From Paraglomus occultum (taxonomy: Eukaryota; Glomeromycota; Glomeromycetes; Paraglomerales; Paraglomeraceae), in contig CAJVPJ010000176.1 in NCBI GenBank assembly GCA_910592205.1, positions 1 through 37,476 of the forward strand: a stretch of DNA of 37,476 nt. The letters are read 5' to 3'. Made by a program: the position numbers and the translations under genes. Below, piece after piece: positions 5,986 to 34,119 of this stretch. Position 1 is the stretch's first letter, and each line of letters begins with the position of its first letter. Under the pieces are notes generated by a model. It made no database searches, had not been told where the DNA came from, and worked only from the letters and a program-made list of their open reading frames with translations.

Positions 5986-6778
5986 TATATTATACTTTGA
6001 TATCAAGCATAGAAAACTACACGACTAATTTGACATAACGCACATTTTGATTTACGTGCAATATAATTGGATAATAATAATTGATCTTTAAATAATTAAA
6101 CTTTAAACCTGGTAAGCTTATATTATTATCTATTATATTGCTAACTTTAACGTTAATGTTCTAGTGGCACAACCCTACAGTAGAAATTTAATTATATCGA
6201 TTCACGATAGAATATTGTATAAGGATCAAAACAATATTATTTATGAGCGGTCAGTATCAAAAAAGTGGATGCCTCAAGTTCTCCACTCAAAGTATAACTC
6301 TGAGACTGAACTTTCGTTTTATATAATCATGATTTTTATTGACAACTACGGAAAACTGCTAAGGCTGCTTTAAGATTGCTAGTACATATACAGACCCAAA
6401 CTGAATTATATAATAAAAAGAACTTCTGATAGTATTAAGTATTATATAATAATAGTAATAGTATAAGTATTAAGAATCATGTTACACAGTAAAATGATCT
6501 GAAGATACATAACCATAGTCAATCATGAGACCGAAACTTTATTATTATGCGATGAACTTACAAGTTGTGATATAATCATAACCCTGTCAATTCTAGCTTG
6601 CAGCGTACCATACGAACACAGCTCCCATTCTAACTATTGCCCGAACTGTCTCCTCATTGCGTCATTGTCACGAAGAACTATGATAAAAGAGTTCGACTTT
6701 ATCTTATCGCTGGAACGAATACTTGTCTGCTATAATACTTTGAAAGGTCTCGGGTGGCGTTAATAAGACCTTTGAGGT

Positions 6779-6868
6779 GGAACGGATAATACCCGAGACC
6801 GAGATGATACCGTACGGATGAGATTTGGATAAAGAAATCTTTGCAATATCACAATGGCGTCTGTAAGA
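6779..6868 (-). repeat. Conserved 3' block of unit 1
   Basis: Downstream of A1 on the minus strand. It contains the GATATTGCAAAGATTTCTTT and CGGGTATTATCC motifs that correspond to the 3' block found after every family A gene (TTGGGCATGATCCAAG in the A3 and A4 units). It is the most diverged of the intact copies. Confidence 0.5.
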
Positions 6869-6956
6869 GTGTTGGTAACAGGAATTAATGAGAGAAATGT
6901 CGAGATCTTTTGAGCACTCATATGATTACACTGAAATGTTGAAACTTACGTATTGT

Positions 6957-7691
6957 TCAGGGCGCATATAGAGAATCGATTACTATATTATAGCCGTCGG
7001 TGTTGGTCTCGGTTGTTGTCAGTTCGAAGCTCGGATTATTCGGACACGGATGCTCTATATGATTGGGTGGCAACAGTTGTGGATCTACTGTTGTTGAAGG
7101 CGACACTTGCCCGTAATTGATAAATCGGAATTGCGGCTCATCGCTGTTCTGTACGTCATTCGGGAATTCTAATACTGTTCCTCCATGCGGGGGAGGTGTG
7201 GCTGGAGTGGGTGGAACGGGAGTTGGAACGGTATTTGCACGTTTGCCGGGTCGCGGTTTCTTAGCCGTCTTGAATGGATCCGTTACTGAGCGGATGGGTC
7301 TTTTTTTAGGATGCCCTGACCTCGTATTTCCAACAAACGATTTATCTTCGACCTCGAGGGGATTGCCGGCAGTGGCGTTGGGATCACGAGATAGATGCTG
7401 CGCAACCAGCTGTTCCAGATCTAATCGTACTCGTTCCTTCGTTGGACTTTCGGCGCACACGTATTTTACAATATTTTGTATACGCTTTGTATCTCTAAAA
7501 AAAGGGCTCAATGGATTGTTTTCGAGTCTGGAGTATAGTAACGCTATTTGGCGGGCTTGTTTGGTTTCATTATCAAGCAATAAGGCAGCGAGTGATTTCA
7601 AAAAGTCCCTCTCCATTTGATGTAGCTTGTGCTCATTCGTAGCGATCTCCTCAATTGTATTTCTCGGTTCGGATATGTCAATTTTATTCAT
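6957..7691 (-). CDS. A1: family A protein, helical N-domain, basic linker, Pro/Thr-rich tail
   Basis: 244 codons from ATG; single exon as read. Residues 20-100 form an amphipathic helical domain (RDFLKSLAALLLD, LYSRLENNPLSPFF, IVKYVCAESPTKERVR, LEQLVAQHLSR) shared with A2-A5. Residues 127-152 are strongly basic with NLS-like clusters (PKKRP, KKPRPGKR). Then come a Pro/Thr run (VPTPVPPTPATPPP) and a Gly/Asn/Pro-rich tail. No signal peptide or membrane segment is visible. I do not recognise the family; a nuclear role is inferred from the basic clusters only. B1 lies 1.4 kb upstream on the same strand, exactly as B2 does to A2. Just after the stop, ACAATAC is followed by the donor-like GTAAGT, matching the position of the 3' intron donor in A3 and A4. 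Confidence 0.75.
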   Translation of the reverse strand: MNKIDISEPRNTIEEIATNEHKLHQMERDFLKSLAALLLDNETKQARQIALLYSRLENNPLSPFFRDTKRIQNIVKYVCAESPTKERVRLDLEQLVAQHLSRDPNATAGNPLEVEDKSFVGNTRSGHPKKRPIRSVTDPFKTAKKPRPGKRANTVPTPVPPTPATPPPHGGTVLEFPNDVQNSDEPQFRFINYGQVSPSTTVDPQLLPPNHIEHPCPNNPSFELTTTETNTDGYNIVIDSLYAP

Positions 7692-8873
7692 CTCTGAAGT
7701 ATGCTAAAAATACTTGAAAAAGCAATCGACAGGGAAAACGTCTTTAAATCAATTAGAATGTTTGTTATACCGACGTCCAACTTCGTCAGAGCATTTCCCA
7801 ATGTGGAAAGCAGGATCTGTTGACCGTTTTGATTCCACCGTTCACATCGTCATATCTTGGCCAATGTCTTCAAACGTTTCATTAGGGAGACATCTTGTTT
7901 CTCTTTTCGAAATAAACACCCCATTTCAATTGAAACGATAGAATTAAACTTTATTTTATTGCTATTTCAAAGTCTTTCCTTACATAATGATATGTTATTC
8001 CAAAAAAATGTATATGCAGTTGATGATGATTAAAAAGGGAAGACACAATCTCAATCTGTACAATGTTTAAAAACAAAAATTCCATTTTAGGATTGACGTC
8101 TTTTTTTCTTTAACGTTAACGTTAAACCCCCACCCACGACACAATACTTGATTAATGAGGTTAGACATATTGTTCGGAATAGCAAAGCATTCTTATTAGG
8201 GACAGCCCGATTTTACCTTATACTTAACATTCATATAATAATAATAGTGATCTAGTCCAAGTTTGACTGTTTGCTTTTATCCCCCCCCCCGATCAGATGA
8301 CAGTAAATGTTGTAAATATTGACATATAAATTAAATCAATTTTACTATTTTGTTTGTTATTGTAAAAGGCTTGTGGCTTAAATAAACATGTTTTCCTTAA
8401 CGAGTTGGCAAGATTACTATATAAATAATGGAGGAGGTTAGAAATTGATCGACGTAAAGTTCCATAATAAGCCGATTACTGGGCATGAATATGTAATCTT
8501 TCCCCCGATCTGAGATTGTCACACTTGTCTCCTTTATTTAGTTAGCCCGATGATATTATTTGAAAGGCAAACTATAGTCTTCTTATTCGAGACGTCACTT
8601 GTTTCTTTAAATAGTTACTCGATTTGAGATTAATCTTACTATTTATTGTAAGAATCTTTTTTTTTATCGGAATGGTGTTTTACAAGAAAATATTTAATAT
8701 AAGAGTTTGTTTTTTTTTTCAAATATACTGCACATTTTGCTATAAGTTACGAAAATAATAAAGACGCATGAATGCAGGCCTACAATCTTTAACAGTACTT
8801 TTTTTTCACAATGATACGCTTACTACTACGCAATTCTGACCCCTTGACCATCAAATTTATAATCACAGTCGAA

Positions 8874-8892
8874 AACAAGCGGAAGGCTTGTT
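8874..8892 (-). terminator. Conserved stem-loop downstream of B1
   Basis: Perfect 7-bp inverted repeat AACAAGC / GCTTGTT with a 5-base loop, about 230 bases after the B1 stop. The same stem recurs after B2 with a changed loop (16199-16217). It may be a 3'-end or RNA stability element; the function is inferred. Confidence 0.45.
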
Positions 8893-9123
8893 GTACGGGG
8901 TGGGTGGGGAAGGGGAAGGGCCAAAATCATGCATAATCCGTGTATGACTGTATAGAAATGGTGTTAAATGATAGTCAGATAAGGCGACAATGGAAAATTT
9001 AAGAAATAAAAAAACTTTACATACACTTTTAATATTGATAAACTGTTCAAACGTTCGCCGAGAAATCAAACTCACGAGTTTGTAGTTTCAATTATTCCTT
9101 GATTTTATCCACGTTGCTAGAAT

Positions 9124-10194
9124 TCAAACATTGTTGTAAGTAAGAACATCCGATGACAAAGTATTTGATGCTGTGGGCTCCACGATACTGTAGCTCATAC
9201 TTCTTGGCGACTTGCAGTAAGTGATCATGGTTGATGAAATGCTATTGATTGGGGCGACGGTACTGTCACCGCTACTTGTCGACCCTCTATCTGACGTATG
9301 CGTGCTCATACTTCTTGGTGACTCACTGATCGGATATCCACCAAGTGTGATCGTGTTTCCATTGACTGAGAGTCCGGCGATAGTACAGTCACTGTTAATT
9401 GTTGACCCTCTATCTGTGCTCATACTTCTTGGTGACTCGCTGATCGGATATCCACTAAGTGTGATCGTGCTCCCATTGACTGAAAGTCCGGCGATAGTAC
9501 AGTCACTGTTAGCTGTTGACCCTCTATCTGGTGTATGCGTGCTCATACTTCCTGGTGAAAATCTGGTAATGACCGTTGAAGCACAGCTATTGTTAATTGT
9601 TGACATGGTGTCCGGAATAGAGAGTTCTTCAGTTTCAGTTATACTTGTAAGCGTGTGCGTGCCACTTGACATTTGCAAAGCTGTATTTCTATGATCCTCA
9701 CTCTCTTTCAAGGAAAACGTTTGATAATACTGATTAAAATCTGCCGGCAGCTTTCTTCCATAAGTGCAAAATGGAGCATTTGAATCTGAAATTTGTTTCG
9801 CTGGTTTACTATACGGTGTATGAGTAATTTTCTTACGAGCTTTTCCTCTACGAGGAGGCTGCGATGTCTGTGGAGAGTCTGATGTGCGTGGTTGCGAGTT
9901 AAAATCGATGCTGACATTAGTTTGAGAAGATCCTTCAGGTATGCTTTGAGAAAGTTCGGACAATTGCGCTAATTTGCACCAAATGTCTTTATTCTCGTGA
10001 ATTATTCTCAAGTAGCCAAAAACTTCTTCAAATTTGTCTTCAACAAGGATTGGATGTGAGGATAAATTGTCGTTAAGTGAATTGTATAACGCACGTAAAA
10101 TATGGTATTCTTCGTAAGTAGTGCGTCGACAAAGGATCTGTCTGAGCAATAAGTTTTTCAAACGTCGCACTTGTTTTAACTTGGTGCCGTCCAT
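9124..10194 (-). CDS. B1: family B protein, helical N-domain, basic linker, repeated Ser/Thr-rich tail
   Basis: 356 codons from ATG (MDGTKLKQVRRL, identical in its first eight residues to B2). Residues 1-92 are a helical domain (LRALYNSLNDN, EEVFGYLRIIHENKDIW). It is reminiscent of the LYSRLENNPL...YVCAES part of family A in order and spacing. Residues about 115-135 are basic (RRGKARKKITHTPYSKP). The rest is Ser/Thr-rich and contains a tandem repeat of 38-41 residues (DRGST..SDCTIAGLSVNG then GYPISESPRSMST), present in two good copies and one degenerate copy. B2 has only one. SPRSMS motifs look like proline-directed kinase sites. No known family; nuclear location is inferred. Single exon as read. 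Downstream lie a conserved donor (GTGAGT) and acceptor (TATACAG) that may define a 3' UTR intron. Confidence 0.75.
   Translation of the reverse strand: MDGTKLKQVRRLKNLLLRQILCRRTTYEEYHILRALYNSLNDNLSSHPILVEDKFEEVFGYLRIIHENKDIWCKLAQLSELSQSIPEGSSQTNVSIDFNSQPRTSDSPQTSQPPRRGKARKKITHTPYSKPAKQISDSNAPFCTYGRKLPADFNQYYQTFSLKESEDHRNTALQMSSGTHTLTSITETEELSIPDTMSTINNSCASTVITRFSPGSMSTHTPDRGSTANSDCTIAGLSVNGSTITLSGYPISESPRSMSTDRGSTINSDCTIAGLSVNGNTITLGGYPISESPRSMSTHTSDRGSTSSGDSTVAPINSISSTMITYCKSPRSMSYSIVEPTASNTLSSDVLTYNNV
9307..9566 (-). repeat. In-frame tandem repeat inside B1
   Basis: The block beginning CATACTTCTTGGTGACTC (plus-strand reading) recurs at 9307, 9421 and 9544, giving periods of 114 and 123 bases, both multiples of three. 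The 9-base difference inserts or removes three codons (THT/THP) without breaking the frame. Confidence 0.8.
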
Positions 10195-10227
10195 TGCTTT
10201 AGTCCATTAGAGGGCAACTTGAGCGTT

Positions 10228-13072: not shown

Positions 13073-14184
13073 ATCAACACAATTTAAATACTTATAAATT
13101 TATGTTATTTACAACACTTCTTAGCAACTTATATCATGGAAGCTCAGATATCGAGAGGTTTAATATGAACACAAAAAAGAAAAGAACATAAGATTTGCCC
13201 GACTCATTGTTAACTATTGCGAGTTTACCCTATATTATACTTTGATATTAAGCATAAAAACTACGCGGGTAAGGATCCGTATCACACATTTTATTAATTA
13301 AACTTTAAACTTAGTAAGCTTATTATTATTACTATTGCTAACCTTAATGTTCTGTTGTACAAACCTGCAACCGTTATATCGAACAACGAATAGAATTTCA
13401 TTCATTTTACAACGCGGGTTCGCGGTGAGGGGAGTCTTTGCGCGGCGAAGCTCTTAAGATCGAATCTAAATTGAACTAATCAGTATCAAAAACGGTTTTT
13501 CTCGGAAAGTATTTGATGTCTCACGTTAATCAGATTCTCCATTTACAGTAGAGGAGGGACCAAACCACTAACTCCGGGTGACTCGTGAGTATTACTAATG
13601 ATAGGAACCTCACAAATCAGGTTGTTCATTGCCGCCATCTAGCAAAGCTAGATCAGAATCTTTATGAAAGAACAACCAACACTTCTATAAGGGTGCTCTA
13701 TTATAGTGGGACGGAGTTTGTTTTATTGGCTGGCTAGTTGAAAAAGTTTACATTGTCAATCAAGAATTGTCACCGGAGAAACAACGAACTGCTCATTCAT
13801 CAACTTTCGTAAAAAAGTGATATATTGTCAATAAGACAGGACCAGTTTACGATCGTGCGCCTGAAACTTTTTAGGTCAATATTTGCGATTAATTTACCTA
13901 TTGCGATGTAACTATAACTCTATCAGTTCTAACACAACTAAGTAATGCTCCTCTTCTAAACGCGACCCGAACTGTCTCCTCCTATACACAGTCCGCAGTT
14001 ATCGCCACGTAGAACTATGATAGAAGAAGATACGGGTAGTTCGACACTTTATCATATCTTTTCTTATTCGATCGCTGAAGCGAATGCCACCTTTGTACTG
14101 TACTTATTCGCTGTAAAGCTTTGGAAGTACCAGACACAGGTTTCGGTAACCGTTAATAAGCCCCTTTGACATTGTAACAGGAGA

Positions 14185-14282
14185 CTATGGATGATGCCCA
14201 AGACAGCCAAGAGATCGAGATGATATTGTATAGAGGAGATTCAGATGAAGAAATCTGTGCGATATCACCATTGATGTCTATA
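14185..14282 (-). repeat. Conserved 3' block of unit 2
   Basis: On the minus strand GACATCAATGGTGATATCGC, AGATTTCTTC and TTGGGCATCATCCA follow A2. TTGGGCAT(C/G)ATCCA is shared exactly, apart from the one variable base, with the A3 and A4 units. This links the A+B modules to the A-only units. Confidence 0.6.
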
Positions 14283-14387
14283 TGAGTAAGTTGGTGATGG
14301 AAAGAAATGTTAAAATCATTTGAGCGCGCAAAAATCAGACTATACGTTTTGTTATGGAAAACCTACGTACGATTCAGGTTTATATTA

Positions 14388-15089
14388 TCACGGATTTCCG
14401 TCAGTATATGGAGAGCTAACAAACTCACAGAACGGATCATAGTCAGTGTCGGTCAGATCGAGGTTCGGATTATTTGGCAATAACTGATCTACTGTTGTTA
14501 AAAGACTGGAAGATGATGTTCTTTCGCCACGGATTTCCGCCACGTTACTGTTCCATTCATTATGCCAGTCTAATAAGGTTCCTCCCGGTGGAGGTGGATC
14601 AGGCGGAGCGGGTGGAGCGGTGTGTGCTCGTTTACGACGTCGTGGTTTCTTAACTACCTTGGACGGTTCTGTTTCTGAGCGGGAGATTGGTCTCTTGTTC
14701 GGACGCTGAGAATCTGACTTGACACGTTCAACGGACGCTTCAGTATCGTCACCTACAGCGATATCGGGGTTACGAGAGAGATGTTGGGCAACCAATTGTT
14801 TTAAGTCTGAACGCACTCGTTCTTTCGTTGGACTTTCAGCGCACACATACTTTAAATTAGTTTGGATGCGATCAATGTCTTGATAAAGTGGGTCTAGAGG
14901 ATTGTTTTCGAGTATGGAGAATAGAGTCGCTACGTGGAAGACAGGTTCGGTTTCACGATGTCGCCCTAGGTCAACGAATGCTTTCAAAAAGTCTCCCACT
15001 ATTTGATTTAACTTATGCTCATTTGCAGTGATTTCCTCAGTTGTATTGGACGATGTACTGCTCGGTTCGGATATGTCAATTTCACTCAT
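14388..15089 (-). CDS. A2: family A protein, closest relative of A1
   Basis: 233 codons from ATG. It starts MSEIDISEPSST (compare MNKIDISEPRNT in A1). The helical domain covers about residues 22-105 (GDFLKAFVDLGRH, LFSILENNPLDPLYQDIDRI, LKYVCAESPTKERVRSDL, QLVAQHLSRNPD). The segment YVCAESPTKERVR is identical in A1 and A2. Basic linker at about 130-160 (PNKRP, KKPRRRKRAH), a short Pro-rich run (PPAPPDPPPPGG), then an Asn/Asp/Thr tail ending SPYTDGNP with two stop codons in tandem. No membrane segment or signal peptide. Function unknown. After the stops, a donor-like site (GTAC|GTAGGT) lies where A1 has GTAC-type GTAAGT, so a 3' UTR intron or lost last exon is possible. Confidence 0.75.
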   Translation of the reverse strand: MSEIDISEPSSTSSNTTEEITANEHKLNQIVGDFLKAFVDLGRHRETEPVFHVATLFSILENNPLDPLYQDIDRIQTNLKYVCAESPTKERVRSDLKQLVAQHLSRNPDIAVGDDTEASVERVKSDSQRPNKRPISRSETEPSKVVKKPRRRKRAHTAPPAPPDPPPPGGTLLDWHNEWNSNVAEIRGERTSSSSLLTTVDQLLPNNPNLDLTDTDYDPFCEFVSSPYTDGNP

Positions 15090-15099
15090 CGCTAAAGTT

Positions 15100-16190
15100 T
15101 TGGGAAAAGATGGAATAAAAATCAGCCCCTTTTTAAACGTTCGAGTGCTGCTGCTCCCTCATGTCCAAATTTGTCAAGCGTTTCCAATTTGAGCGCAAAG
15201 CATGATTAATAATGTACTTACGGTCAGTAACATTCTGTAGCCCTTTGATTTTATACTTGTCTCTATATCGGGACAATTGATCCCCAAAAAGTTGCTCCAA
15301 AGCCTTTCCACCTTCCTTTCCTCCTTACAGAAGACATACTACTTATTTCGTTATTCAAATATGAACGTAATGGACGTTCTTGGGAAGATAAGCGTTGGGT
15401 TAATTAATTACAGAAGGGAAAAAAACAAACAACTATTTTTAGAATTTTTTGCACTCCCGCTCCCTTTTTGGACTATTACTTAATTAGAATGCAATCTGGC
15501 ATATCGATATATTAAGTAACTGCTTTTGTTTGTTCATGTGATACATGTGACAAACCAACTAGCATTTAACCTGTTCTGAAGTAAAAAAACACGAAGCACA
15601 TAGAGTATCCATAAGCAGGGAAGAAATAATCGATGGCAATCCTCATTTATTGAAAACCATCCTAAAAACCAAAGAAAAGAATTAGAAAATAGTTCCAAAG
15701 ACCTAAGTATTAGTGACACTTTCTGGCTTGAACGTATCATTACGTTCTTCCACAAGACGTACCGATCTTAATCTGTGGCTATAATGCCGAAAGGGGAGAC
15801 TGATTATTACACTTTTTATTGTCAACTGGTTAGCTCGATAATATTTTTAAAGACAAACTATTGTCTCGTCATCTAAGATGTTTTCTGTTTCTTTGAAGAG
15901 CTATTTCATAAGGATCGATCGAGAACAAACTTGAAATTCTGCTATTTATTGTAAGAAATCTTTTTTTTTATTGAAATAGTGTTTTACAAGAGAATATTTG
16001 ATACACAAGTCTTTTTTAAATATATTGTACATTTTGCCATCTTGCAACACATAAGAACAGCCTTTAACAGCAATCGCCCAGTTTTTCGCAATGATACCCA
16101 ATGCTTACGTAAGTGTTTGGCACCTCTCGCATGGCCGCACTCATGGAGATTTATTGACTGGCCTCCAATCCACCCCAACATCAAACTTCA
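15100..16190. other. A2-B2 intergenic region, conserved with unit 1
   Basis: No gene seen. The portion at 15940-16060 (ATTTATTGTAAGAAATC, GTGTTTTACAAGAGAATATTT, then CATTTTGCCAT) matches 8640-8750 in unit 1. It lies in the 3' flank of B2. Confidence 0.5.
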
Positions 16191-16198
16191 GAACTGAC

Positions 16199-16217
16199 AA
16201 CAAGCAAAAGGCTTGTT
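16199..16217 (-). terminator. Conserved stem-loop downstream of B2
   Basis: AACAAGC / GCTTGTT, 7-bp perfect stem with a 5-base loop, about 210 bases after the B2 stop. The stem is identical to that after B1, while the loop and adjacent bases have changed. The upstream context ACACGGATTATG(C/T)ATGATTTTG is shared as well. Confidence 0.45.
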
Positions 16218-16424
16218 CGGGAGTGAAGCAAAATCATACATAATCCGTGTAAATCTGTATAAAACAGTGTTAGCGATAGTTAGAGATAAGAAGACAATGG
16301 AGGAACAAAAGAAAAAAAAAGTCTTTACATACATTTTTAACACTGATAAACTGGCTAGATATTCGCCAAGCAATCAATTCACAAGTTTATAGTTTCAAAT
16401 TATTATCGACTTTATCCGTTCGCA

Positions 16425-17321
16425 TTACCACTCGGATGAACCATTCGGGACGAAATCCGAGCAACGTTGTGCGTAAAAACCATTCGATGATTGAACATTT
16501 GACGTTATTGGCTCCTCGCTACTGAAGCTCATACTTCTCGGCGACTCGCAGTAATGGTTGATGACATTCGACGTACATTCACCGCCAAATGTAAGCATGC
16601 TTGATGCAGACCCATCTAATGGAAGTCCGACAATAGTACAGTTACTGCTAGTTGTCGACGCTCTCTCTGGTGTATGCGCACTCAGTCTTCTTGGTGGCTC
16701 GCAAACTGGAAGTCCGGAAATGGTCGTTGAAGCAAAGTTATCGCTAGTTGTTGACGTTGTATTTGGAATAGGGAGCCCTTCGGTTTCAGTTGTACTTGCG
16801 CGCGTACCAATTGACATTGGTGGAGCATGTGTATTTCCATCACCGTTATTCTTTTCCAAAGGAAAAACTTGAAAAAGATGTTTAACTTCTTCTGGTAAGT
16901 CTTTTCCATAAGAAGACAAGGCAGCATTTGAATCTGACGATTGTTTCTTTGGTCTACTGTACGGCTTACGAGTAATTTTCTTACGAGAATTCCTCTTCCC
17001 TCTACGAGAAGGCTGCAATGTTTGCGGAGATTCCAATGTGCTGGGTTTCGAGCCAGGATCGATTATGACATTAGATTGAGGAGGTTCCGACAGTTCTTCT
17101 AATTCGTGCCATATTTTGCTATTATCGTCAAGAGTTTTCAACCAGACAAAAACGTCATCAAATTTGCCTTCAGTAAAAATTGTATGTGATGGATTGTTAT
17201 TGACTGAATTGAATAGCCTACGTAAAATATCGAACTGTTTGTAGGTAGTGCTTGGACAGACGAACAGTTTGAACAGAAATTCTCTCAAACGTTGTATTTG
17301 TTTCAACTTGGTGCCGTCCAT
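16425..17321 (-). CDS. B2: family B protein, shorter relative of B1
   Basis: 298 codons from ATG (MDGTKLKQIQRLREFL). The N-terminal helical domain covers residues 1-88 (ILRRLFNSVNNNP, DDVFVWLKTLDDNSKIWHEL). The basic linker is at about 108-135 (SRRGKRNSRKKITRKPYSRPKKQ). A Ser/Thr-rich tail follows, with ESPRSMSF near the C-terminus. It carries one copy of the unit that is repeated in B1 (AHTPERASTTSSNCTIVGLPL). The ending (YAQRCSDFVPNGSSEW) differs entirely from B1. No known family; nuclear location inferred from the basic linker. A TATA-like AAATAAATAA lies on the minus strand about 45 bases upstream of the ATG. Confidence 0.75.
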   Translation of the reverse strand: MDGTKLKQIQRLREFLFKLFVCPSTTYKQFDILRRLFNSVNNNPSHTIFTEGKFDDVFVWLKTLDDNSKIWHELEELSEPPQSNVIIDPGSKPSTLESPQTLQPSRRGKRNSRKKITRKPYSRPKKQSSDSNAALSSYGKDLPEEVKHLFQVFPLEKNNGDGNTHAPPMSIGTRASTTETEGLPIPNTTSTTSDNFASTTISGLPVCEPPRRLSAHTPERASTTSSNCTIVGLPLDGSASSMLTFGGECTSNVINHYCESPRSMSFSSEEPITSNVQSSNGFYAQRCSDFVPNGSSEW

Positions 17322-17349
17322 GCTTAATTCACCAGAAGGGAACCGATGT

Positions 17350-18296: not shown

Positions 18297-18369
<73 letters not shown>
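18297..18369 (+). repeat. (TTG)n microsatellite
   Basis: An uninterrupted TTG run of about 24 units over 73 bases, outside any called gene. The run is immediately followed by TCAATAATTCGGAT, a 14-mer that recurs at 19597. Confidence 0.95.
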
Positions 18370-19740: not shown

Positions 19741-20100
19741 TTTTAAGATTAATGAAGTTAGAACGCTTACGAGTTGCTTTGACGTACGTTTGCAAATAAC
19801 ACAAAAATTATCAAATAACATTATGTTAAATTTGAGAGATATCATTATCATGTGTGTTTTGATGTGCAAGACTTTTGTCCAGGTAGCGTATATCCTGTAT
19901 TTGCAATTGTGACCGTATGTCTTAACTTTACTGATTTAATTTAATCTTGATAATTTATGCTAACAGTTTTGCAGACACACGAAAACAATTTTTTGTTTGG
20001 TATTTCTTTCACCACTGGAGCGATATCTTATAATCTACCTGCTATACGTCTCTGGGGACTGCCAGATATGTTTCAAGCCTTGCTAACAATAGCTAATGCC

Positions 20101-20185: not shown

Positions 20186-20212
20186 AAAGTAGATGACGAC
20201 AAAAATAATGGA

Positions 20213-21109
20213 TTAGGAAAGGTTAGATAATATGGCCATAATAAAAGCTTTACTCACTTGTGATGCAGCGCCATCCGTATTATAAGATGGCGGAGAGCTA
20301 TAGATGGTCCCAAAACCATCAGCATATAAAGGAGTATAGCCATTGTCGGTTCTCTGTACATAATTTAACTGCTGCAGTTGTCCTCCTCCGATCATATCTG
20401 TGATAAGAATATTACTGACGGTCGGCACATTACCTTCCTGCACTTCGATCAGCCCAGAAGTCAGAGGAGTCTGTTGCATACGACTGAGTTGTAGCAATTG
20501 CTGTTCTTCTGTTGCTGATGGAATAAAAGACACCGCTTGTCCGTCATGGCCATTTGGAGTTGCTAATGTATTACTTTTCTGCATTTCTTTTGTGGAATTT
20601 CCGAAATCCATGACCTTCTCATACGGTCCTACACGTACACGTTTTCCTGATCGTCTGTCAATGACCGTGGGCTCGTAAGAAGCAGATCTTTTCTGAGAAT
20701 TTGACGTGACAGATGCATTGGTACAAGTATTAAGGTTGGGAAGAGAGTTAACGTGGAGATTAGGTCTGGGCAAAAGGTGCTCGACTGCTATTTGTTTTAG
20801 TTCTGACTGCATTCGTTCCTTTGTTGTTGGGTTTTCAGCAGACAGATATGACAAAATGGTCTGGACACGATCGAGATGATCGTAGAGAGAATGTAATGGA
20901 TCGCTTTTGAGTGCGGATTGTAACCTCGCCACTACGACATATAGTTTATCGTCCACTAATATTAAGCCGACAATCGCTTTGAGAAAGCTTCCTTCCATTT
21001 CCTTTAATTTTTTCCTATTCTCGGTTGCTTTCTCTGATGCGCTGGGAAACTGTTTAACAGAAACATTCTTACTAGATGTACGGCTCGATTTAGATTGTGT
21101 TTTACTCAT
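20213..21109 (-). CDS. A3: family A protein
   Basis: 298 codons from ATG if unspliced. A GTGAGT donor after codon CAA (exon end 20258) and a TTTATAG acceptor (exon start 20180) predict a 77-base intron. Splicing would end the protein ...DGAASQE-stop at 20175 in place of the 15 extra codons read through. The helical domain is at about residues 24-110 (SASEKATENRKKLKEMEGSFLK cut here; then LQSALKSDPLHSLYDHLDRV, LSAENPTTKERMQSEL). The linker is less basic than in A1 and A2 (SGKRVRVGPYEKV). The tail is Gln/Ser/Gly-rich (EEQQLLQLSRMQQ, DMIGGGQLQQL). No known family. From about residue 140 to the end it is almost identical to A4, but the N-terminal half is clearly diverged. Confidence 0.75.
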   Translation of the reverse strand: MSKTQSKSSRTSSKNVSVKQFPSASEKATENRKKLKEMEGSFLKAIVGLILVDDKLYVVVARLQSALKSDPLHSLYDHLDRVQTILSYLSAENPTTKERMQSELKQIAVEHLLPRPNLHVNSLPNLNTCTNASVTSNSQKRSASYEPTVIDRRSGKRVRVGPYEKVMDFGNSTKEMQKSNTLATPNGHDGQAVSFIPSATEEQQLLQLSRMQQTPLTSGLIEVQEGNVPTVSNILITDMIGGGQLQQLNYVQRTDNGYTPLYADGFGTIYSSPPSYNTDGAASQVSKAFIMAILSNLS

Positions 21110-22597: not shown

Positions 22598-22984
22598 TGA
22601 CTAAGAGGTTCTATGTAGACGGTCGAGTAACTTCCTGTACGCTTGAATTTAATCAGAAGTTAAGTGTTGGCCGTAACACTTTTTTGATATTAACGATGTT
22701 CGCGTATCAGGCGTTGAATTTCGTTATCGATACCGAATATGTAAGAGGTATGTGAGAGGCTAGGCCTCACATTTTAAGTGCACAATTTATAACGTCTTTT
22801 AGTTACTATTCCATCATGATCGTACGTTAACTTTATTGGATCAACATTGTGATACACAGCTGAAATAAATATAGTACATGCTTACACTCCATTTCCCGTT
22901 ATAGTTTGGACGCGAGTGATATCTTTAATCTCTGGCACATTTCCGACGTATTTCAGCTTCATGAGTAAGTGGTAATTATGATCC

Positions 22985-23090
22985 TCGAAAGTTAAACCAG
23001 AATGCTTGGATCATGCCCAAGGCGGGCCCCAAGCGATGTTGGATGTAGAAGACAATCACCTGTGATGTCGCTATCATTCCTATAAAGTAG
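22985..23090 (-). repeat. Conserved 3' block of the A4 unit
   Basis: GAATGATAGCGACATCACAG, GTGATTGTCTTC and CTTGGGCATGATCCAAGCAT, then CTTTCGAGGATCATAATTACC on the minus strand. The last piece recurs at 28990-29012 and, altered, at 25474-25498. Confidence 0.7.
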
Positions 23091-23110
23091 ATGGCGACAA
23101 AAATAATAGA

Positions 23111-24004
23111 TTAGGAAAGGTTAGATGATATGGCCATTATAAAAGCTTTACTCACTTGTGATGCAATGCCATCCGTATTATAAGATGGCGGAGAGCTATA
23201 GATGGTCCCAAAACTATCAGCATATAAAGAAGTATAGCCACTGTCGGTTCGCTGCACATAAGGTAACGGCTGCAGTTGTCCTCCTCCGATCATATCTGTG
23301 ATAAGAATACTACCGACGGTCGGCACATTACCTTCCTGCACTTCGATCAGCCCAGAAGTCAGAGGAGTCTGTTGCATACGACTGAGTTGTGGCAATTGCT
23401 GTTCTTCTGTTGCTGATGGAATAAAAGACACCGCTTGTCCGTCATGGCCATTTGGAGTTGCTGATGTATTACCTTTCTGCATTTCTTTTGTGGAATTTCC
23501 GAAATCCATGACCTTCTCATATGGTCCTACACGTGGACGTTTTATAGATCGTTTATCGATGACTGTGGGCTCGCAAGAGGCAGATCTTTTCTGAGAATCT
23601 GACGTGACGGATGTATTGGTATTAGGATTGGGAAGAGAAGTGCTAGTGTAGACATTAGATCTAGGGAAGAGGTGCTCGGCTACTAATTGCATGAGATCAC
23701 ACCCCATGCGTTCCCTAGTTTTTTGATTTTTAGCGCACAAACATGTCAAAATGGCTGGAAAACGGTCGAAGTGTTCATATAACGGGTGTAATGGATCGCT
23801 GTCGAGCTCGAGGTATACTTGTGACACTAGATCGTTTAGTTTATCACCCGATCGTGTCAGTTTGGCTATCGCTTTTAGAAAGCTTCCTTCCGATTGCTTT
23901 AGTTTTTTCCAATTTTCGGTTGCTTTCTCTGATGCGCTGGATGACTGTCTAATATTGACGCTATCATTAGATGCGCCGTTGGGTTTAGATTGCGGTGTAC
24001 ACAT
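23111..24004 (-). CDS. A4: family A protein, 3' half nearly identical to A3
   Basis: 297 codons from ATG if unspliced. As in A3, a GTGAGT donor (exon end 23156) and TTTATAG acceptor (exon start 23080) predict a 75-base intron, giving ...DGIASQE-stop. The N-terminal helical domain (GSFLKAIAKLTRSGDKL, LELDSDPLHPLYEHFDRF, LMQLVAEHLFPR) aligns with A3 and A5 but is clearly diverged. From SQKRSAS onward it matches A3 with only scattered changes. The linker is basic (KRSIKRPRVGPYEK). No domain known to me, no membrane segment. The contrast between the two halves and the shared 3' flank point to gene conversion with A3. An upstream TATAAAG element supports active transcription. Confidence 0.75.
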   Translation of the reverse strand: MCTPQSKPNGASNDSVNIRQSSSASEKATENWKKLKQSEGSFLKAIAKLTRSGDKLNDLVSQVYLELDSDPLHPLYEHFDRFPAILTCLCAKNQKTRERMGCDLMQLVAEHLFPRSNVYTSTSLPNPNTNTSVTSDSQKRSASCEPTVIDKRSIKRPRVGPYEKVMDFGNSTKEMQKGNTSATPNGHDGQAVSFIPSATEEQQLPQLSRMQQTPLTSGLIEVQEGNVPTVGSILITDMIGGGQLQPLPYVQRTDSGYTSLYADSFGTIYSSPPSYNTDGIASQVSKAFIMAISSNLS

Positions 24005-25162: not shown

Positions 25163-25469
25163 TCGCGAGTCTTTGAAGAAAGCTTTTGTTAACAAATGAA
25201 TAAAAATTTCCTGGACATAAAGATTACGTTATTTAGCATTTCATCAATATTAAGGATAGAGTCGTCTTTGTTCATCACTAATAATAGACAATTAAGGCGG
25301 AAATCATACAAAACGCCCAAACCAGAAGCTGTTATGGGAATTTTTTATATTTGCAATCGCACTAGTACATTATTGAATCATAACATAAACTATTGAGTTC
25401 GTTATTGTCTACTTACTGTAAACTCTCTGGGGGCACCGAACACGTTCAGTCTTAGATGCAAGTATTAAT

Positions 25470-25545
25470 TATAGTCTTCGAAAGTTAAACTAAAATGTTA
25501 AAAAATTCCTTTATGTCGCTGTAAATACAAATGGCGATAAGAAAA
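25470..25545 (-). repeat. Decayed 3' block of a lost A unit
   Basis: CTTTCGAAGACTATAATTAA on the minus strand, preceded by TTTAGTTTAA, parallels the A4 3' flank (CTTTCGAGGATCATAATTAC). ATGTCGCTGTAAATACAAAT corresponds to the GATGTCGCTATCATTCCTAT segment. No A gene remains next to it except the pseudogene at 26489. Confidence 0.4.
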
Positions 25546-25935: not shown

Positions 25936-26488
25936 CCCCCGAAAATCTTTACCGACCGTATTTAGTACGTCCATTTGTACTGTTCGAAGTCACTTGGTCA
26001 TATTTTTTAGGAAAAGATAATGATACGATGTGTAACAAAAAGAACCACTTTTTTTTTCAACAAATAATGTACAGGGATGCTAAACAAGATGCTTGGAGTG
26101 ATTGAAAACGGTGATCTAGAACATACGAGTCGTCTTGCCAGCGATTTTTTGCAGAAAAATGCTCTATACCCAGTCAATCTGTCAATATGAAGGCTTGTTC
26201 ATGAAAATTAATAAATCGCTGAGAGCAAGTAAAATATCTAGTTTGTTTAGGACATATAATATATATATTTTTTTATAGTCAGAAAATCTAAAGAAACTTC
26301 ATACTAATAGGGCCACGCTTTATGCCTGTTCGTAATAATTGCAAATTACAAATTGTGCATCTAGTTCTTGAAACATTCAGGGCTTGGTCATGCCGTACGT
26401 TATATTTCGTTTAGTTCAAAGGCGTATGCACCCATTGTTAAAGCCAGTAAAAATTGTTAACTGGTCGTTCCCACCGCTTCCCCGTAGG

Positions 26489-26763
26489 TCAGAATTCAGT
26501 ACACAGATAGTCAAAATGATTGGACACTCGTAGAGAGGGTGTCTTTCGAGCACGAGGTAGGTATACTTGCGACATTACGGCATATAATTTATTGCCCGCT
26601 AATGTTAGGCTGACCATCGCTTTCAAAAGCTTTCTCTCGGTGGCTTTCTCTGATGCGCTGAATAAAGACGTTCTTGCTTTAGTTGCATTCGTTCTATCCT
26701 CACGACTCACTGATGTCAAAGTGAAAGCATAGGCAGAAATTAGCCACATCCTGTTTATTTATT
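26489..26763 (-). pseudogene. A-pseudo: truncated, frameshifted family A gene
   Basis: The promoter is still recognisable (AATAAATAAACAGG and CTAATTTCTGCC, compare A3 and A5). The frame reads FSASEKATERK, LLKAMVSLTLAGNKLY and AVMSQVYL, matching SASEKATE and the SFLKAI..L...DKLY..V segment of A3 and A4. About 8 residues (KKLKEMEGS equivalent) are deleted. A frameshift after VYL moves the rest to another frame, where LVLERHPLYECP matches LELDSDPLHPLYEH of A4. Homology ends shortly after, near 26490, so basic linker and tail are missing. Clearly non-functional. Confidence 0.8.
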
Positions 26764-27039
26764 AACAGAAACGTTTGATTGTACCGAAACCATATCGCTA
26801 GATTCTACGATCAGAATTGGACAATACTTTAGTTATTCTATTGGCAAAATTAAATTTTCACGTATCTGGTAAGCTGCGTGTATTTAGCGTGGGTTCACTC
26901 TTGAAATATCCGCCTCGATATGGTATTATTACGGTTATCTATTACTATTATAGGCACGACAAAGGGATAATCTTTCATCAACTATAAAACGAACGCCGAG
27001 ACGTACATGCAGATACTCTTTGAATTCGTGAACATCATC

Positions 27040-27860: not shown

Positions 27861-27865
27861 TTATT

Positions 27866-27960
27866 CTGTTTAAATTGTGCTGCACTCATTCTATCTCTCA
27901 CGACGATACTGATGTCAAGGTGAAAGCAAATCGGCCGACTCCTCTGTTCTATTTCATTTG
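27866..27960 (-). pseudogene. Promoter and start-region remnant of a lost family A gene
   Basis: AAATAGAACAGAGG, then TTTGCTTTCACCTTGACATC, AGTATCGTCGTGAGAGATAG and AATGAGTGCAGCA follow the A-pseudo promoter and 5' end base for base, with scattered changes. Homology stops before the helical domain. Confidence 0.6.
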
Positions 27961-28980
27961 GTTGTTTTAGCTTACACTGTAATGCTAATTTTGGAACCAT
28001 CGGTAATGGTGAAAAGGGATGAGAAATTCCACCAAATTGGACAGAATTTGATGTTTGATCCTTTTTCGACTGTTAGTACTACCAAAAAATATTCCTGTTC
28101 TCCCTTTTTTGTATCTGGCCGCCATATTTGCACATTCAACCAAATGAGTAATCAAATTCGGCGAACTCACTATCAAATTGTTCGTATATAGTAATAATCT
28201 CAATTTGGAAATGGTAAATGACGTGCGGCGTAACAAATAAGCTGCCGCATTAGGCAGAGAAAACTTCACCATTGACTGTTGCTACAGTAGATAATGTTAA
28301 GAAGAGCGTTTTTACTTTCGGACAAATTTATTTTACAACAAAACTTTGTTGTTACCTAGTTTGATCGGTGGTCGAGCTTTAAGTGCGCTAACTGATGTAA
28401 CATATTGAATCAATACCTAAGAAGGAAACAACGGCGAATTGTGTAAAGCAATGCTTTCCATATCAAAACAGAACGTATAATGTAGTGACAAATATATTTG
28501 TCTTGTAACGCTAGCTAGAGTACAACCGAATGGAAGATAATTAATTCAAAAAGTTATGCGAAAAGCACTTTACTGTAGCTGTCCAGTTACTATTGAATTT
28601 CTGATCTTGCGTCTTCAATCTCAGAAGTTCCTGGTTAACGAAAAAAGCACTTTGTAAAAACAACGTGTCAAATATTCCTGAAATAACACTTATAGCGTAA
28701 GTATTACTGATAAAGAACGCAAATTTCCAAGCATGACAATATCTTATCGTTTTTATGCTTTTTTATTTAATAGGTTTTTGACATTGAAGCGCGAAAAAAA
28801 AGTTGTAATTATCATGAATAGAAGATCACAGAGTTTATACTCAGGACGATTTCGAATTTGAGTTTAATTTTTTTTCGGACACATTGGCATTACATTGGAT
28901 GCTGTTAAATTTGAACATTAATTGTAACATTACTGTAGATATGGGGTACCAGACATGTTCTGACAGATTTCAACTTTAGA
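27961..28980. other. Intergenic, no supported gene
   Basis: Overlapping short frames on both strands at 27958-28272 show no family features. I see nothing else. Confidence 0.3.
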
Positions 28981-28984
28981 CGTA

Positions 28985-29160
28985 AACGTCAATTATAATC
29001 CTCGAAAGCTAAAACCAAACACTTGAATTATGCCCGACAGTTAAAACGTAAAGAAAAAAAAAGACTGCAATGTTGCTATAAAAGTAGATTACGAAAACTG
29101 TGTAAGCTTTTTGATGGAAAGATTAGACTGTCATAGCCCACTATAAAAGCTTCTTATGGA
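28985..29160 (-). repeat. 3' block of a lost A unit
   Basis: On the minus strand: AAGCTTTTATAGTGGGCTAT and GACAGTCTAATCTTTCC (compare AAGCTTTTATAATGGCCATA..ATCTAACCTTTCC at A4), then TTTTATAGCAACATTGCAG, GGGCATAATTCAAG and AGCTTTCGAGGATTATAATT. The order is the same as in the A3 and A4 units, but the gene body is gone. Confidence 0.65.
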
Positions 29161-29319
29161 CTCTTATCATTCAAGGCAGACTCGATAAGCGTAAGGTTGT
29201 GGGGAAGGCAATTTATTCGTATCAAGATTTTCGCTTTATCAAATTTTGCACCAAGTCGAATTATTATATATGTTTACTGTGAAGATATCGGAATCAAATT
29301 TATTAGCGTATCGTTTCTA

Positions 29320-30100
29320 AGTCACTCGGTTATATTTGTTCAAAATAATGCTGTTAAAATCTTCCACGCGGGATTGGGATAGGTCGGCCATCGCTCGCTT
29401 TTCCCCAGTCGGTGCGACTTCCAAGAAAACTGGGGGCCTCGGGTGCTTGGGGTAATTAATGGTTCAAAGCAGACGACCCAGTTGAGAGCGAATTTCTATT
29501 AATTTGAGCCTTGTATTTATCAAAGTTATCCGATAATATTTTTCTTTTACTATAAAATAAATTTGGCTGTTTTATCTTTCAATTGAAGTCGTTGACGTTG
29601 TCATATTAATATACTGTTTTTAACCAATGATTCAGGCGCTCCCAAATACAATGCAAAATCATGCTCAGTAATATCGGGCGGATAGTAGCGAACATCACCA
29701 ATTACCTTAAACTACAGTCTAAATGCAACGCATCGAGACCATATGGCTAAGTCAGACATTACTTGCATTTACGGAAGTTTGCATTTACAGAGAATAAAAT
29801 ACCTGATGCTCGTATCGAACCAGAGCTTTGTTTATGAAAATTTGTTAAATCGTTGAGCAAAGACAAAACTTAAAATACTTTGTTTATTCTGTATACCAAC
29901 AGTCCTTACGGATGAATTAAATAAGCGGTATTAGAATATACCCAGTTCTCACAATCTCATTTTCTCAATTTCTTAACTTCAGTCATCCCCTAAATAATAT
30001 CATGTCTTACACAAAAGTCTACATACGGTACAGTCACGCCACTTACAGTCTAGATAATCACTACATCCTCGTTGCTCGTTATGCTGTCAGCAGCGACAAA
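29320..30100. other. Intergenic, no supported gene
   Basis: Contains a locally GC-rich stretch at 29365-29450 (GGTCGGCCATCGCTCGCTTT, GGGGGCCTCGGGTGCTTGGG). I could not fold it into a known RNA. Confidence 0.3.
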
Positions 30101-30108
30101 AAAAATCC

Positions 30109-30633
30109 CGTTCACAAATAACTGACAACATTCGTAAAGAAATCTGTGATTATGCGCAGAAGTTTCCTGATAAAAAACACAAATTCATTGCCGATTTCTT
30201 CAATAATCAATATTCAACTCTTAGTATTGACAGGTCTACAATTTCGAAATACTTAAAAACAAGGATCGGTGGCGAAATGTTGTTAAGAATACTTCTTCGA
30301 AAGTTTACCGACACCGTAACATTAAGTGACCATACATTGAGAGAGCTATGGGAATCTGGATTAACCAAGTTACGTCAGCAGGCTTATTCCTCAGTGATCT
30401 TTTAATTAAAGAAAAAAGAAGAGAATTTGCTAAGCTGTTTAACACACCTTCTGACGACATGAAATTCTCTAATTGCAATAACCTGAAAACTTACCGCCTT
30501 CATGGAGAGGCTGCCAGTGTTTCACTCGACATTGTGTTTGACGAAAGGCTGAGGTTGCGCAACTTGTTATCAATATGATCCTAATGACATTTATAATGCA
30601 GACGAAACGGGTTTGTTTTATCGAATGTCTCCT
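30109..30633 (+). pseudogene. Pogo/Tigger-like transposase pseudogene (N-terminal part)
   Basis: The plus strand reads, through several breaks, a CENP-B/pogo-type transposase. The N-terminal HTH is ITDNIRKEICDYAQKF, KFIADFFNNQY, LSIDRSTISKYLK. The second DNA-binding domain is IERAMGIWINQV, SAGLFLSDLLIKEK, REFAKLFNTPSDDMKFSN, NNLKTYRLHGEAASV. After a frameshift comes the first catalytic block YDPNDIYNADETGLFYRM, with the first Asp of DDE_1. There is one in-frame stop before IERAM, a deletion of about 8-9 codons after KFSN (the GWL.RFK.R part usual in the family), and a frameshift near 30575. Everything after YRMSP is absent. It is the only plus-strand coding relic of size in the window and could be the source of the pogo-like terminal motifs, which is inference. 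Confidence 0.88.
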
Positions 30634-31420: not shown

Positions 31421-32044
31421 TAAAAATTATTTTTGATGGATAATATACACCTTACATTCTGGCATAAATTCTGAAATTAAGCCATTCGGGTACACTCAGT
31501 ATAGTAATAGGAAAGACCAAGATTTTATTTCCTAGAAAAGGGAAGACCTAACGAATCAATGGTTTTTTTAAACATGAGGATATAACTATGATATCCAAAT
31601 TAAGTGCTGCTCGCAACACTTTCTACTATTAACAGTGTTCGTGTATTATAGATACTGAACACGTAAAAGACAAAGTCCCACATTTAAACAGAGAGTCTTT
31701 ATTACATTATACATCGGAATAGAACTTTTACAATTGTGATAAAGGTAGAATACTTTCGCAACGTATCTCTGCATCGCGTTGATACGCAAGTAATATTATT
31801 GGACTAAGCCTATAGCCGGTAACCTTTTGCTTCAATAACATTAGATCACATGTTATTTTCCAACAAATCATATTGATGAGATATACGCGGCCAATCATAT
31901 GAAACAATATATCATCACGACGATTGCCATATTCATACCCAAATGTCCCGCTTGTTCTACTAAATTTTACGTGCAATATCCTTCCGTTGAAAGCAGTTAC
32001 CGTCTTTATCGGGCGAGACATTCGCTCGTTTTGAACCGGCTCAC

Positions 32045-32557
32045 TTATTGCAATATTGCCCACATGATTATGACATGGTTATCCGTTATGGACACGATGA
32101 TAGATAGTCTGTCATCCGCGTACAATCCCACATGCTGCCACTTCGTATATACAGACTTTACAAATGTCAAACACAGCACAATGTCCGTAACAGTATATAT
32201 TACTTCATTATGTACATATTTAATACACCAAAGACGAACAAGTGGATAAAGTCGCGATTTGCGAATAGTCACGAAGCGGCGCGCGCGCTCTATTAGTATG
32301 GAGCTCCGGTTTATTAAGTTCACGTAAGATTCGCGACTAGTTAAATAACTTAGACTATATATATCCGCATATCTAATTCGTTCTTCATAATGTTGTAGTG
32401 AAACAATCAATTCTGGTATACCATTTCCTTCTTTCACTCGTTCCATCACTATAGCGAATGATACCTTATAATCGACTAAGTCTCTGGGGATGCCAGACGT
32501 TAATTTATGTCCCCTTGCACTATGCCCAAGTATGAGCAAAACGAGATTATGTGTCAT
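32045..32557 (-). CDS. Doubtful 170-codon frame downstream of A5
   Basis: ATG frame starting MTHNLVLLILGHSARGHKL, 120 bases after the A5 stop. Most of it lies in the 3' flank that is conserved, with stops, after other A genes. For example CCAGAGAC(T/G)TA and GGGCAT align with the A3 3' flank, which is not open there. The protein is rich in Ile, Leu, Val, Arg and Tyr, with no known motif. I consider it more likely a chance frame or 3' UTR than a gene, but its length in AT-rich DNA deserves mention. Confidence 0.2.
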   Translation of the reverse strand: MTHNLVLLILGHSARGHKLTSGIPRDLVDYKVSFAIVMERVKEGNGIPELIVSLQHYEERIRYADIYSLSYLTSRESYVNLINRSSILIERARRFVTIRKSRLYPLVRLWCIKYVHNEVIYTVTDIVLCLTFVKSVYTKWQHVGLYADDRLSIIVSITDNHVIIMWAILQ

Positions 32558-32680
32558 CCTTGTAAGATGTCGTTGTAAATAGATGACAGTGGAAATAACG
32601 GAAAGATTGTAAGAACCTTTCGATAGGAAAGATCTGACTGTATGACTGTTATGAAAACTTATTATACAAACTCACCTGTT
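32160..32680 (-). repeat. 3' flank of the A5 unit, most complete copy
   Basis: Contains in order the GTGAGT donor after A5, CATACAGTCAGATCTTTCCT, the CGACATCTTACAAGGATGAC equivalent of the 3' block, TTGGGCATAGTGCAAG, CTGGCATCCCCAGAGAC, CTTAGACT, CTCCGGTTT and the TGTCCGTAACAGTATATATT far block. It is uninterrupted, so it serves as the reference for the Tc1-split A3 unit. Confidence 0.55.
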
Positions 32681-33476
32681 ACGCAGTGTCATAAGATGTC
32701 GGGGAGGCACAGAAACAACAAGAGTGTACACAAGGTTGCGACGGCAATTGTACTCCGCTGATCATGTCTGCAGCGAGGCTATTTATATTATCGATTACCG
32801 GCACGTTATCTTCCGGGGTTTCATTCAGATCAGAAGTCAGAAACACATCTTCCGTTGATAATGAAACTCTTTGTCCGTCATAGTCATGGCCATTGAGACT
32901 TGTGGACTGATTGCTTTCCTCCACTTCTCCCGTAGGATTTTCGAAACATATTTGTGACTCGTGCGGTCCCATGCGCTTTAGTTCGCGTTCACGGTCACGT
33001 TCAAGTTCTGAACGTTGTCTCTTATTATTATTGCCTTTGGGTTTTGAGTAAGATGCCGGTCTTTTCCTTGAAACCGGCGTAAGACCAGTACAGGTATTAG
33101 GATTGGGCAGGGAGGTACTGGTGCGGGCATTAGGTCTGGGAGAGACATGCTCGGCTGCCAATTGCACTAGATCTGACCGCATCTGTTCTCTAGCTGCCGA
33201 ATTCTCGTCACATACATATGTCAACATGATCTGGATATGATCCAGAAGTTCGTAGAGAGAGTGAAATGGATCACTTTTGAGTGCGTTGTATATTCGCGAC
33301 ACTACGAAGCTTAGATCATCCTTATCTACTCCTAGGTGGCGAAACGCGTTTAGAAAGCTTTCCTCCGTTTGCTTTAGTTTTCTCGCATTCTCGGTGGCTT
33401 TCTTTGATGCGGGGGGTGGCCGGATGACAGTAATATTTTCGTCGGATGTACTAGACAGTTCGGATAGCGTTGTCAT
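32679..33476 (-). CDS. A5: family A protein
   Basis: 265 codons from ATG. The N-terminus is Ser/Thr-rich, then the helical domain covers about residues 22-108 (ASKKATENARKLKQTEESFL, IYNALKSDPFHSLYELLDHI, LTYVCDENSAAREQMRSDL, QLAAEHVSPRP). The basic linker is about 135-170 (SRKRPASYSKPKGNNNKR, ERDRERELKRMGPHE) and is the most highly charged of the family. The tail is Asp/Ser/Asn-rich and shares only traces with A3 and A4 (TSDLNETPEDNVPVI beside TSGLIEVQEGNVPTV). It stops at GCG TAA one codon before the conserved GTGAGT donor, where A3 and A4 have TCA, so the last exon is lost or untranslated. Function unknown; nuclear location inferred. Confidence 0.75.
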   Translation of the reverse strand: MTTLSELSSTSDENITVIRPPPASKKATENARKLKQTEESFLNAFRHLGVDKDDLSFVVSRIYNALKSDPFHSLYELLDHIQIMLTYVCDENSAAREQMRSDLVQLAAEHVSPRPNARTSTSLPNPNTCTGLTPVSRKRPASYSKPKGNNNKRQRSELERDRERELKRMGPHESQICFENPTGEVEESNQSTSLNGHDYDGQRVSLSTEDVFLTSDLNETPEDNVPVIDNINSLAADMISGVQLPSQPCVHSCCFCASPTSYDTA

Positions 33477-33531
33477 TCTGATTCAGGACAGACACTAATG
33501 CCGAGTAAAGCACAATCAGAAACCAGCTGTT

Positions 33532-33542
33532 CTATTTATTGT
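33532..33542 (-). promoter_or_regulatory. TATA-like element of A5
   Basis: AATAAATAGAAC on the minus strand, about 55-65 bases upstream of the ATG, followed by GGTTTCTGATTGTGCTTT. Shared with A3 and A-pseudo. Confidence 0.5.
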
Positions 33543-33919
33543 TAATAAGTGTATGCCTTATACGGTATACCATTTTCAGAACGTTTTAAGTTCAACCCAA
33601 AATAAAAGGTTTAAATATACTCAATTTGGAATCGATACCATAATTTGAGACACTAACACATGATTGTTATGTAAGGTACCAATAGAATTTTTAAGTGAAC
33701 TATAAATAATTAATATGGGTTCGGCTTTTAATGAATATATGCATATGCATAAAAAATATAGAGATAAAACGTCTGGCGTCCATTTTATAATTTATTGGAT
33801 GACGTATGTTGATTAAATCAAATGATGTTTTTATAATAGACAGTTTAAGTTAAATATATATACGAATGTTCTTGGTATGAAAAAGGTTGATATCCTATCA
33901 ATAGGACGGATGATTTTCT

Positions 33920-34095
33920 AATACGCCTCCGGGGTACCTCCGATGGGTTAGGATCAAGCCATTTGGATTATGCCACCTTGGCTAAAACGGGATTGTGGAA
34001 TAGAAATGGGGAAAACGTGTGATGTCGCTATCCCACTTAAAAGAGGTGTTCGATAGGAAAGATTCAGATAGCGTGTCACTGATTATTATGAGAAA
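33920..34095 (-). repeat. 3' block of a further lost A unit (last of the array)
   Basis: The minus strand reads CAGTGACACGCTATCTGAAT, CTTTCCTATCGAACACC, GATAGCGACATCACACG and GGCATAATCCAAATGG. The order and spacing match the A4 and A5 3' blocks. No A gene body lies upstream of it. Confidence 0.55.
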
Positions 34096-34119
34096 CTCTC
34101 TCTCTCTCTCTCTCTCTCT
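34096..34119 (+). repeat. (CT)12 microsatellite
   Basis: Uninterrupted CT run of 24 bases, directly next to the last array 3' block. Confidence 0.95.

Follow-up and report, generated by a model that had tools for sequence, protein, structure and literature searches.

Here we describe a tandem array of two gene families on contig C176 (GenBank CAJVPJ010000176.1) of Paraglomus occultum, an arbuscular mycorrhizal fungus whose genome is small and repeat-poor according to PMC9453076. The window is this whole contig (37,476 bases); the genome assembly totals 32.3 Mb and comprises 1,408 contigs. The array comprises seven genes on the minus strand: five intact open frames of one family, A, interleaved with two genes of a second, B. 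The A genes fall into two classes, namely A-I with A1 (6957-7691; 244 amino acids, aa) and A2 (14388-15089; 233 aa), and A-III with A3 (20213-21109; 298 aa as an unspliced frame), A4 (23111-24004; 297 aa, likewise unspliced) and A5 (32679-33476; 265 aa), for which a structure was modelled. Family B consists of the single-exon genes B1 (9124-10194; 356 aa) and B2 (16425-17321; 298 aa), which are 49% identical. An earlier sequence-only reading of this DNA had proposed five intact A genes sharing one strand, and the five open minus-strand frames bear this out; it made no mention of B.

The public P. occultum protein P0002 agrees with A4 save at its C-terminus, which is longer in P0002 and fits splicing near the A4 stop. 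Splice-like sequences lie just ahead of the open-frame stop in both A3 and A4 (20000-20285 and 22900-23180), and the 3' end of A3 may contain an intron. The B1 tail holds two in-frame tandem copies of a 114-bp unit (38 aa each; 9302-9530), and no such repeats were found in B2 or in the aligned B proteins of Paraglomus brasilianum.

Relatives and domain layout of the array proteins

A Pfam scan of the seven genes returned no family at or above the cut-off; the best matches among nine members of A were DUF6040 (expectation value, E, 0.066) and FlaG (E 0.072), each in one protein. Beyond P. occultum, the relatives of A in the protein database are four P. brasilianum proteins, P0003, P0007, P0008 and P0009, although the match list of the A profile is incomplete, its own query members A3, A4 and P0003 being missing from it. 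Among the matches listed, all named relatives in the protein searches come from Paraglomus; these searches require shared five-residue words, so distant fungal relatives could have been missed. No description of the A/B array was found in the literature searched. The array is known so far from Paraglomus alone, and the family can still be called undescribed, as had been claimed.

Genome searches, in which the tool scores the best candidates only, gave five places each for A3 and for the P. brasilianum A-I protein P0009, all on C176. B queries returned C176 together with weak single places on contigs C102 (see below) and C945 (E 0.15, with the P. brasilianum B protein P0013 as query). A transposon was considered and rejected on this distribution of the best candidates; placement in a transposon family had been named as an outcome that would count against the sequence-only reading.

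In a phylogeny of the N-terminal 150-165 residues, A-I and A-III separated at 100/100 support, with five of the six inner branches unresolved. P. brasilianum members are present in both classes, A1 and A2 grouping with P0007-P0009 in A-I, and the split is therefore probably older than the two species. On a 16,904-base P. brasilianum contig, genes 4021 (A-III), 4022 (B) and 4023 (A-I), and on a 10,091-base contig genes 10557 (A-I) and 10558 (B), appear to be neighbours, their order being inferred from consecutive gene numbers together with contigs of equal length. These orders match A3, B2, A2 and A1, B1 of P. occultum; judging by the gene numbers, P. brasilianum seems to have A-III, B and A-I arranged as they are here.

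The sequence-only reading gave the A proteins a helical N-terminal domain, a basic linker and a low-complexity tail, and both structure models and composition agree. The AlphaFold2 model of A5 shows a compact four-helix domain at residues 23-110 (helices 23-50, 55-68, 73-89 and 96-110), with 69 residues at a predicted local distance difference test score (pLDDT) of at least 90; after residue 110, where confidence is low, the model adds a short helix in the linker (157-166). The B1 model likewise has four main helices (3-20, 27-42, 55-67 and 69-81), plus a further, short helix (48-51); block means of pLDDT over helical residues 3-81 are 68-85, and confidence is low thereafter. The fraction of S, T, P, Q, N and G in the seven genes is 0.42-0.56 from residue 161 on, as against 0.25-0.33 in the domain.

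A basic motif in the linker (a simple K-K/R-x-K/R or bipartite pattern) is present in all five A genes and B2, and in three of six A and B proteins examined from P. brasilianum (P0003, P0008 and P0009). From the distribution of this motif, the linker is likely to be a nuclear signal in A, and less surely so in B. The same linker might instead contact DNA, with the four-helix domain serving to dimerise a new type of DNA-binding regulator. The position of the linker next to the helical domain in both families and the short helix within the A5 linker are consistent with this, and the fold searches (no Foldseek match reaching E 0.001) gave no confident known fold that would contradict it; nevertheless, we consider it unlikely, given that the A5 linker has a pLDDT of only ~40-59 and that linker sequences show poor conservation between A-I and A-III.

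Basic motifs, disordered tails and restriction to one symbiont genus would also fit effectors secreted by the fungus and sent to the plant nucleus, like the SP7-like effectors reported from arbuscular mycorrhizal fungi, which localise at nuclear condensates according to PMC11333574. This is improbable: the seven genes show no leader-like stretch, with the highest 12-residue mean hydropathy in the first 46 residues being 1.38, as judged by hydropathy only and not by a signal-peptide program.

Relation of family B to a Zn2Cys6 factor

A genome search with B2 matched contig C102 at 31728-32138 (E 6.6e-4), and the reverse search returned B2 at E 0.0014. The C102 frame codes for 473 aa with a zinc cluster (Zn_clus, PF00172) at residues 123-162 (Pfam E 2.8e-4), the score of which is barely above the cut-off (21.4 versus 21 bits). 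B aligns to residues 202-279 of C102 and begins about 35 residues behind the zinc cluster. In hhalign, the B profile scored 35.6 against C102, compared with 21.0 for the best of 200 column shuffles and 11.9 for the reversed sequence. Against a background of 62 open reading frames (ORFs) of at least 90 aa, drawn from the fetched loci off C176, C102 came first at 38.5, the runner-up reaching 16.6. These profile comparisons indicate homology between the four-helix domain of B and the domain that follows the C102 zinc cluster, a link to a transcription factor that is new to this analysis. In C102, as in the array proteins, the helical domain is followed by a basic stretch and then by a low-complexity tail.

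A profile built from B and C102 finds the P. brasilianum proteins P0013 and P0015 (B) and P0016 (a relative of C102), as well as P0014, which equals P0015 apart from a stretch without counterpart in the latter. The public model of P0016 reads its N-terminal part in another frame than that of the C102 cluster. In the frame of the cluster, the possible codons are compatible with cysteine at six of six positions (judged by eye, with no control), and the frame used by P0016 carries a stop in C102; thus, the zinc cluster is probably present in both species. The public model of the C102 protein itself, P0012 (1093-2514 in locus L009 of contig C102), begins behind the cluster at internal Met 197, a few residues from the start of B in the alignment, which could be either a misannotation or the sign of a B-shaped short isoform.

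For A, the corresponding evidence is suggestive. The hhalign comparison of A with B scored 23.1, the best of 200 shuffles reaching 20.1 (P 0.0015), and the A profile scored 24.7 against B2, above the best of the 62 background ORFs (18.1). That A shares the four-helix domain of B is probable, not proven.

No Zn_clus match was obtained in the seven array genes at E ≤ 5, and the full zinc-cluster cysteine pattern occurs in none of the six frames of the window, where an intron inside the motif would mask it; none of the 20 matches listed in a genome-wide Zn_clus search lies on C176. Given the domain homology, B looks like the C102 factor minus its DNA-binding N-terminus. Having the helical domain of the factor and no zinc cluster, it could pair with the C102 factor as a competitor or co-regulator. 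Alternatively, the shared domain may be a mere contact module in orphan genes that act outside transcription, e.g., as scaffolds with disordered tails. The low-complexity tails, the failure of all seven genes to reach the cut-off of any known family and the motif-less linker of B1 would suit such proteins, but basic motifs in six of the seven and the three-part order held in common with the C102 factor make this account doubtful, to about the same degree as a DNA-binding linker.

Selection, decay and probable exchange within the array

We estimated the ratio of nonsynonymous to synonymous divergence (dN/dS) by the Nei-Gojobori method with 1000 bootstraps. Whole-gene values are 0.36 for A1/A2, 0.55 for A3/A4, 0.55 for A3/A5 and 0.48 for A4/A5, and for each of these pairs no fewer than 999 of the 1000 bootstraps put dN below dS; the other six A pairs, which set A-I against A-III, are at or close to synonymous saturation and did not enter the bootstraps. 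For the helical part of A3/A5 taken by itself, the bootstrap interval spans zero (7.8% of bootstraps). Selection is seen for A and not for B, and in the four unsaturated pairs the A genes do not show the ratio near 1 that the sequence-only reading had regarded as damaging to its case.

The same reading had described the tails as fast-changing. This holds for A1/A2, where the tails evolve faster than the helical domains (dN 0.52 versus 0.24), and fails for A3/A4, in which the tail is nearly identical and is the most conserved part: dS falls from 0.84 in the helical domain to 0.28 in the linker and 0.033 in the tail. The homogenised tract covers the A3 tail and 3' flank (20124-20723, minus strand) and is shared with A4 at about 23022-23620. 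Identity in 60-column windows is 0.85-1.00 inside the tract, 0.67 before it and 0.69 after it, dropping ~100 bases beyond the stop. Synonymous changes before and after residue 163 differ sharply (Fisher p 3e-11; 1e-9 to 7e-9 for three alternative cuts). Recent ectopic gene conversion of the A3/A4 tail would be the simplest reading of this pattern. With half of the gene homogenised and half diverged, the pair makes a suitable subject for studies of how putative contact domains diversify on shared tails. Further, dS is 0.98 for A1/A2 and 0.41 for B1/B2; thus, no single clock fits the divergence of the two A-B units, and the gap would be accounted for by gene conversion in B or by separate duplication events.

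At E ≤ 1e-3 the window as a whole has 27 self-matches, some of them outside the A/B array, compared with zero in any of 20 mononucleotide shuffles. Flanking blocks shared in order and strand, claimed earlier for the array, are evident between A1+B1 (5977-10199) and A2+B2 (13223-17325), in pieces, and between A3 and A4. The block 3' of A1 (5977-6154) matches that 3' of A2 (13223-13351) in two pieces of 81% and 89% identity. A non-coding block between B1 and A1 (8541-8743) matches one between B2 and A2 (15829-16040) at 70% identity (E 2.8e-21); no third copy was reported in the genome search and Rfam gave no match. A shared promoter is one possible identity for this block, and an RNA gene another. 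It has been kept, yet a large part of the sequence separating it from A can no longer be aligned.

Between A4 and A5 lie a truncated, decayed N-terminal copy of A-III (26467-26766, minus strand; nhmmer E 1.1e-27) and a 5' remnant of an A-III gene (27865-27936, minus strand; nhmmer E 0.01), which answer to the A pseudogene and 5' remnant of the sequence-only reading; positions 27881-27928 of the remnant match 26684-26729 of the decayed copy (blastn E 4e-6). Of its three solo 3' blocks, two were recovered as stray copies of the A4 3' block, at 28959-29163 (minus strand; nhmmer E 2.4e-7, blastn E 1.4e-7) and, shorter, at 25460-25497 (minus strand; blastn E 2.5e-4), and the third was not identified. 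The shorter block could be part of the decayed copy, and the number of array units accordingly varies with how such pieces are grouped.

These pieces, together with the B1/B2 ratio, which is indistinguishable from neutrality, and a helix-turn-helix-like frame at 30058-30402 (plus strand) with seven partial relatives elsewhere, might suggest that the array is a functionless, decaying remnant or a domesticated mobile element. We hold this to be highly improbable in view of dN < dS in four A pairs, open relatives in P. brasilianum in the same order by gene number, and no A match elsewhere in the genome among the best candidates scored. The helix-turn-helix-like frame codes for 115 aa, with HTH_32 as its top Pfam match (E 0.028, below cut-off), and several of its seven relatives contain stops; we take it to resemble the helix-turn-helix of pogo/CENP-B-type transposases.

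Two further features were noted in the window. A duplicated stretch near the left end (870-1220 and 2466-2943; 81% DNA identity in the main pieces), unrelated to the A/B array, contains a 114-aa frame; with weaker and in part broken relatives on eight further contigs, it seems to belong to a dispersed family. At 18297-18369, ~1 kb upstream of B2, lies an uninterrupted (TTG)24 repeat, which reads as CAA on the minus strand; a long glutamine run precedes the zinc cluster of the C102 factor, and the resemblance is probably a coincidence.

Proposed role and comparison with known systems

Our favoured reading, to which we give a probability of roughly 45%, is that A and B are two families of probably nuclear regulators that have no DNA-binding domain and work as partners or competitors of DNA-binding factors through protein contacts. 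The compact N-terminal four-helix domain would make these contacts, either mutually or with the C102 factor; the basic linker, clearer in A than in B, would carry the protein to the nucleus; and the disordered S/T/P/Q/N/G-rich tail might contact the transcription machinery, the array proteins thereby modulating transcription. The B domain derives from, or has common ancestry with, the helical domain behind the C102 zinc cluster, and the array would have grown by old tandem duplication and be changing via decay and exchange. The suggestion of a lineage-specific regulator in the sequence-only reading gains support from the B-domain homology to a Zn2Cys6 factor.

Several results weigh against the favoured reading. 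First, hhalign gives the A-B match a probability of just 16.5%; with the A profile, four of the five B sequences taken singly stay within background (12.6-15.6), and the B profile scores 6.9-15.4 against nine single A sequences, none standing out. A compared directly with C102 gives no signal, 63 of 200 shuffles scoring as high. Second, the B1 model has a low overall mean pLDDT (42.5), and B1 lacks the basic motif, as do three of the six proteins examined from P. brasilianum (P0007, P0013 and P0015). Third, dN/dS behind the helical domain of A3/A4 is 0.75, not distinguishable from 1 (26% of bootstraps), and is 1.39 in the tail alone, on 14 and 3 changes; B1/B2, at 0.82, is likewise not distinguishable from 1 (12.3% of bootstraps). 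Finally, the change could have run the other way, with the factor gaining its zinc cluster later.

If B does bind the C102 factor, this would be a fungal tandem array of non-DNA-binding relatives of one regulator in an early-branching root symbiont, and the factor offers a concrete candidate partner.

The sequence-only reading had also raised conflict or self-recognition; no evidence was found for either, and nothing pointed to a conflict system. By analogy, the array might be a Paraglomus recognition or compatibility locus, in which diverged helical contact domains on converted tails provide nucleus- or strain-specific sets of partners for a transcription factor; variable dimerisation domains work in this way in fungal mating-type loci. 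This is the least probable of the readings considered here. PMC11414155 names a previously undescribed locus as a criterion for the true mating-type locus in arbuscular mycorrhizal fungi, and, were the recognition reading true, the array would be the kind of undescribed locus that fits it.

Among known systems, the putative homeodomain mating-type locus of Rhizophagus, as presented in PMC11414155, would also be a nuclear-regulator locus in an arbuscular mycorrhizal fungus; it differs in its homeodomain, PF00046 having no match on C176 and the 10 matches listed lying elsewhere in the genome. Inhibition of a multidomain relative through a heterodimer is the mark of a microProtein. Such regulators retain the contact domain of the larger protein to which they are related (PMC7534434). 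B would act alike if it paired with C102 through the shared domain, but with 298-356 aa and a long tail of its own it is not a small single-domain protein. The helical bundle domain of DAXX, which we take to be a transcription co-regulator, is also among the closest systems. Finally, while no zinc cluster was found in A, B or elsewhere in the window, the Zn2Cys6 (PF00172) factors, represented here by the C102 frame, resemble the array proteins in the helical domain of B and in the succession of helical, basic and low-complexity parts.

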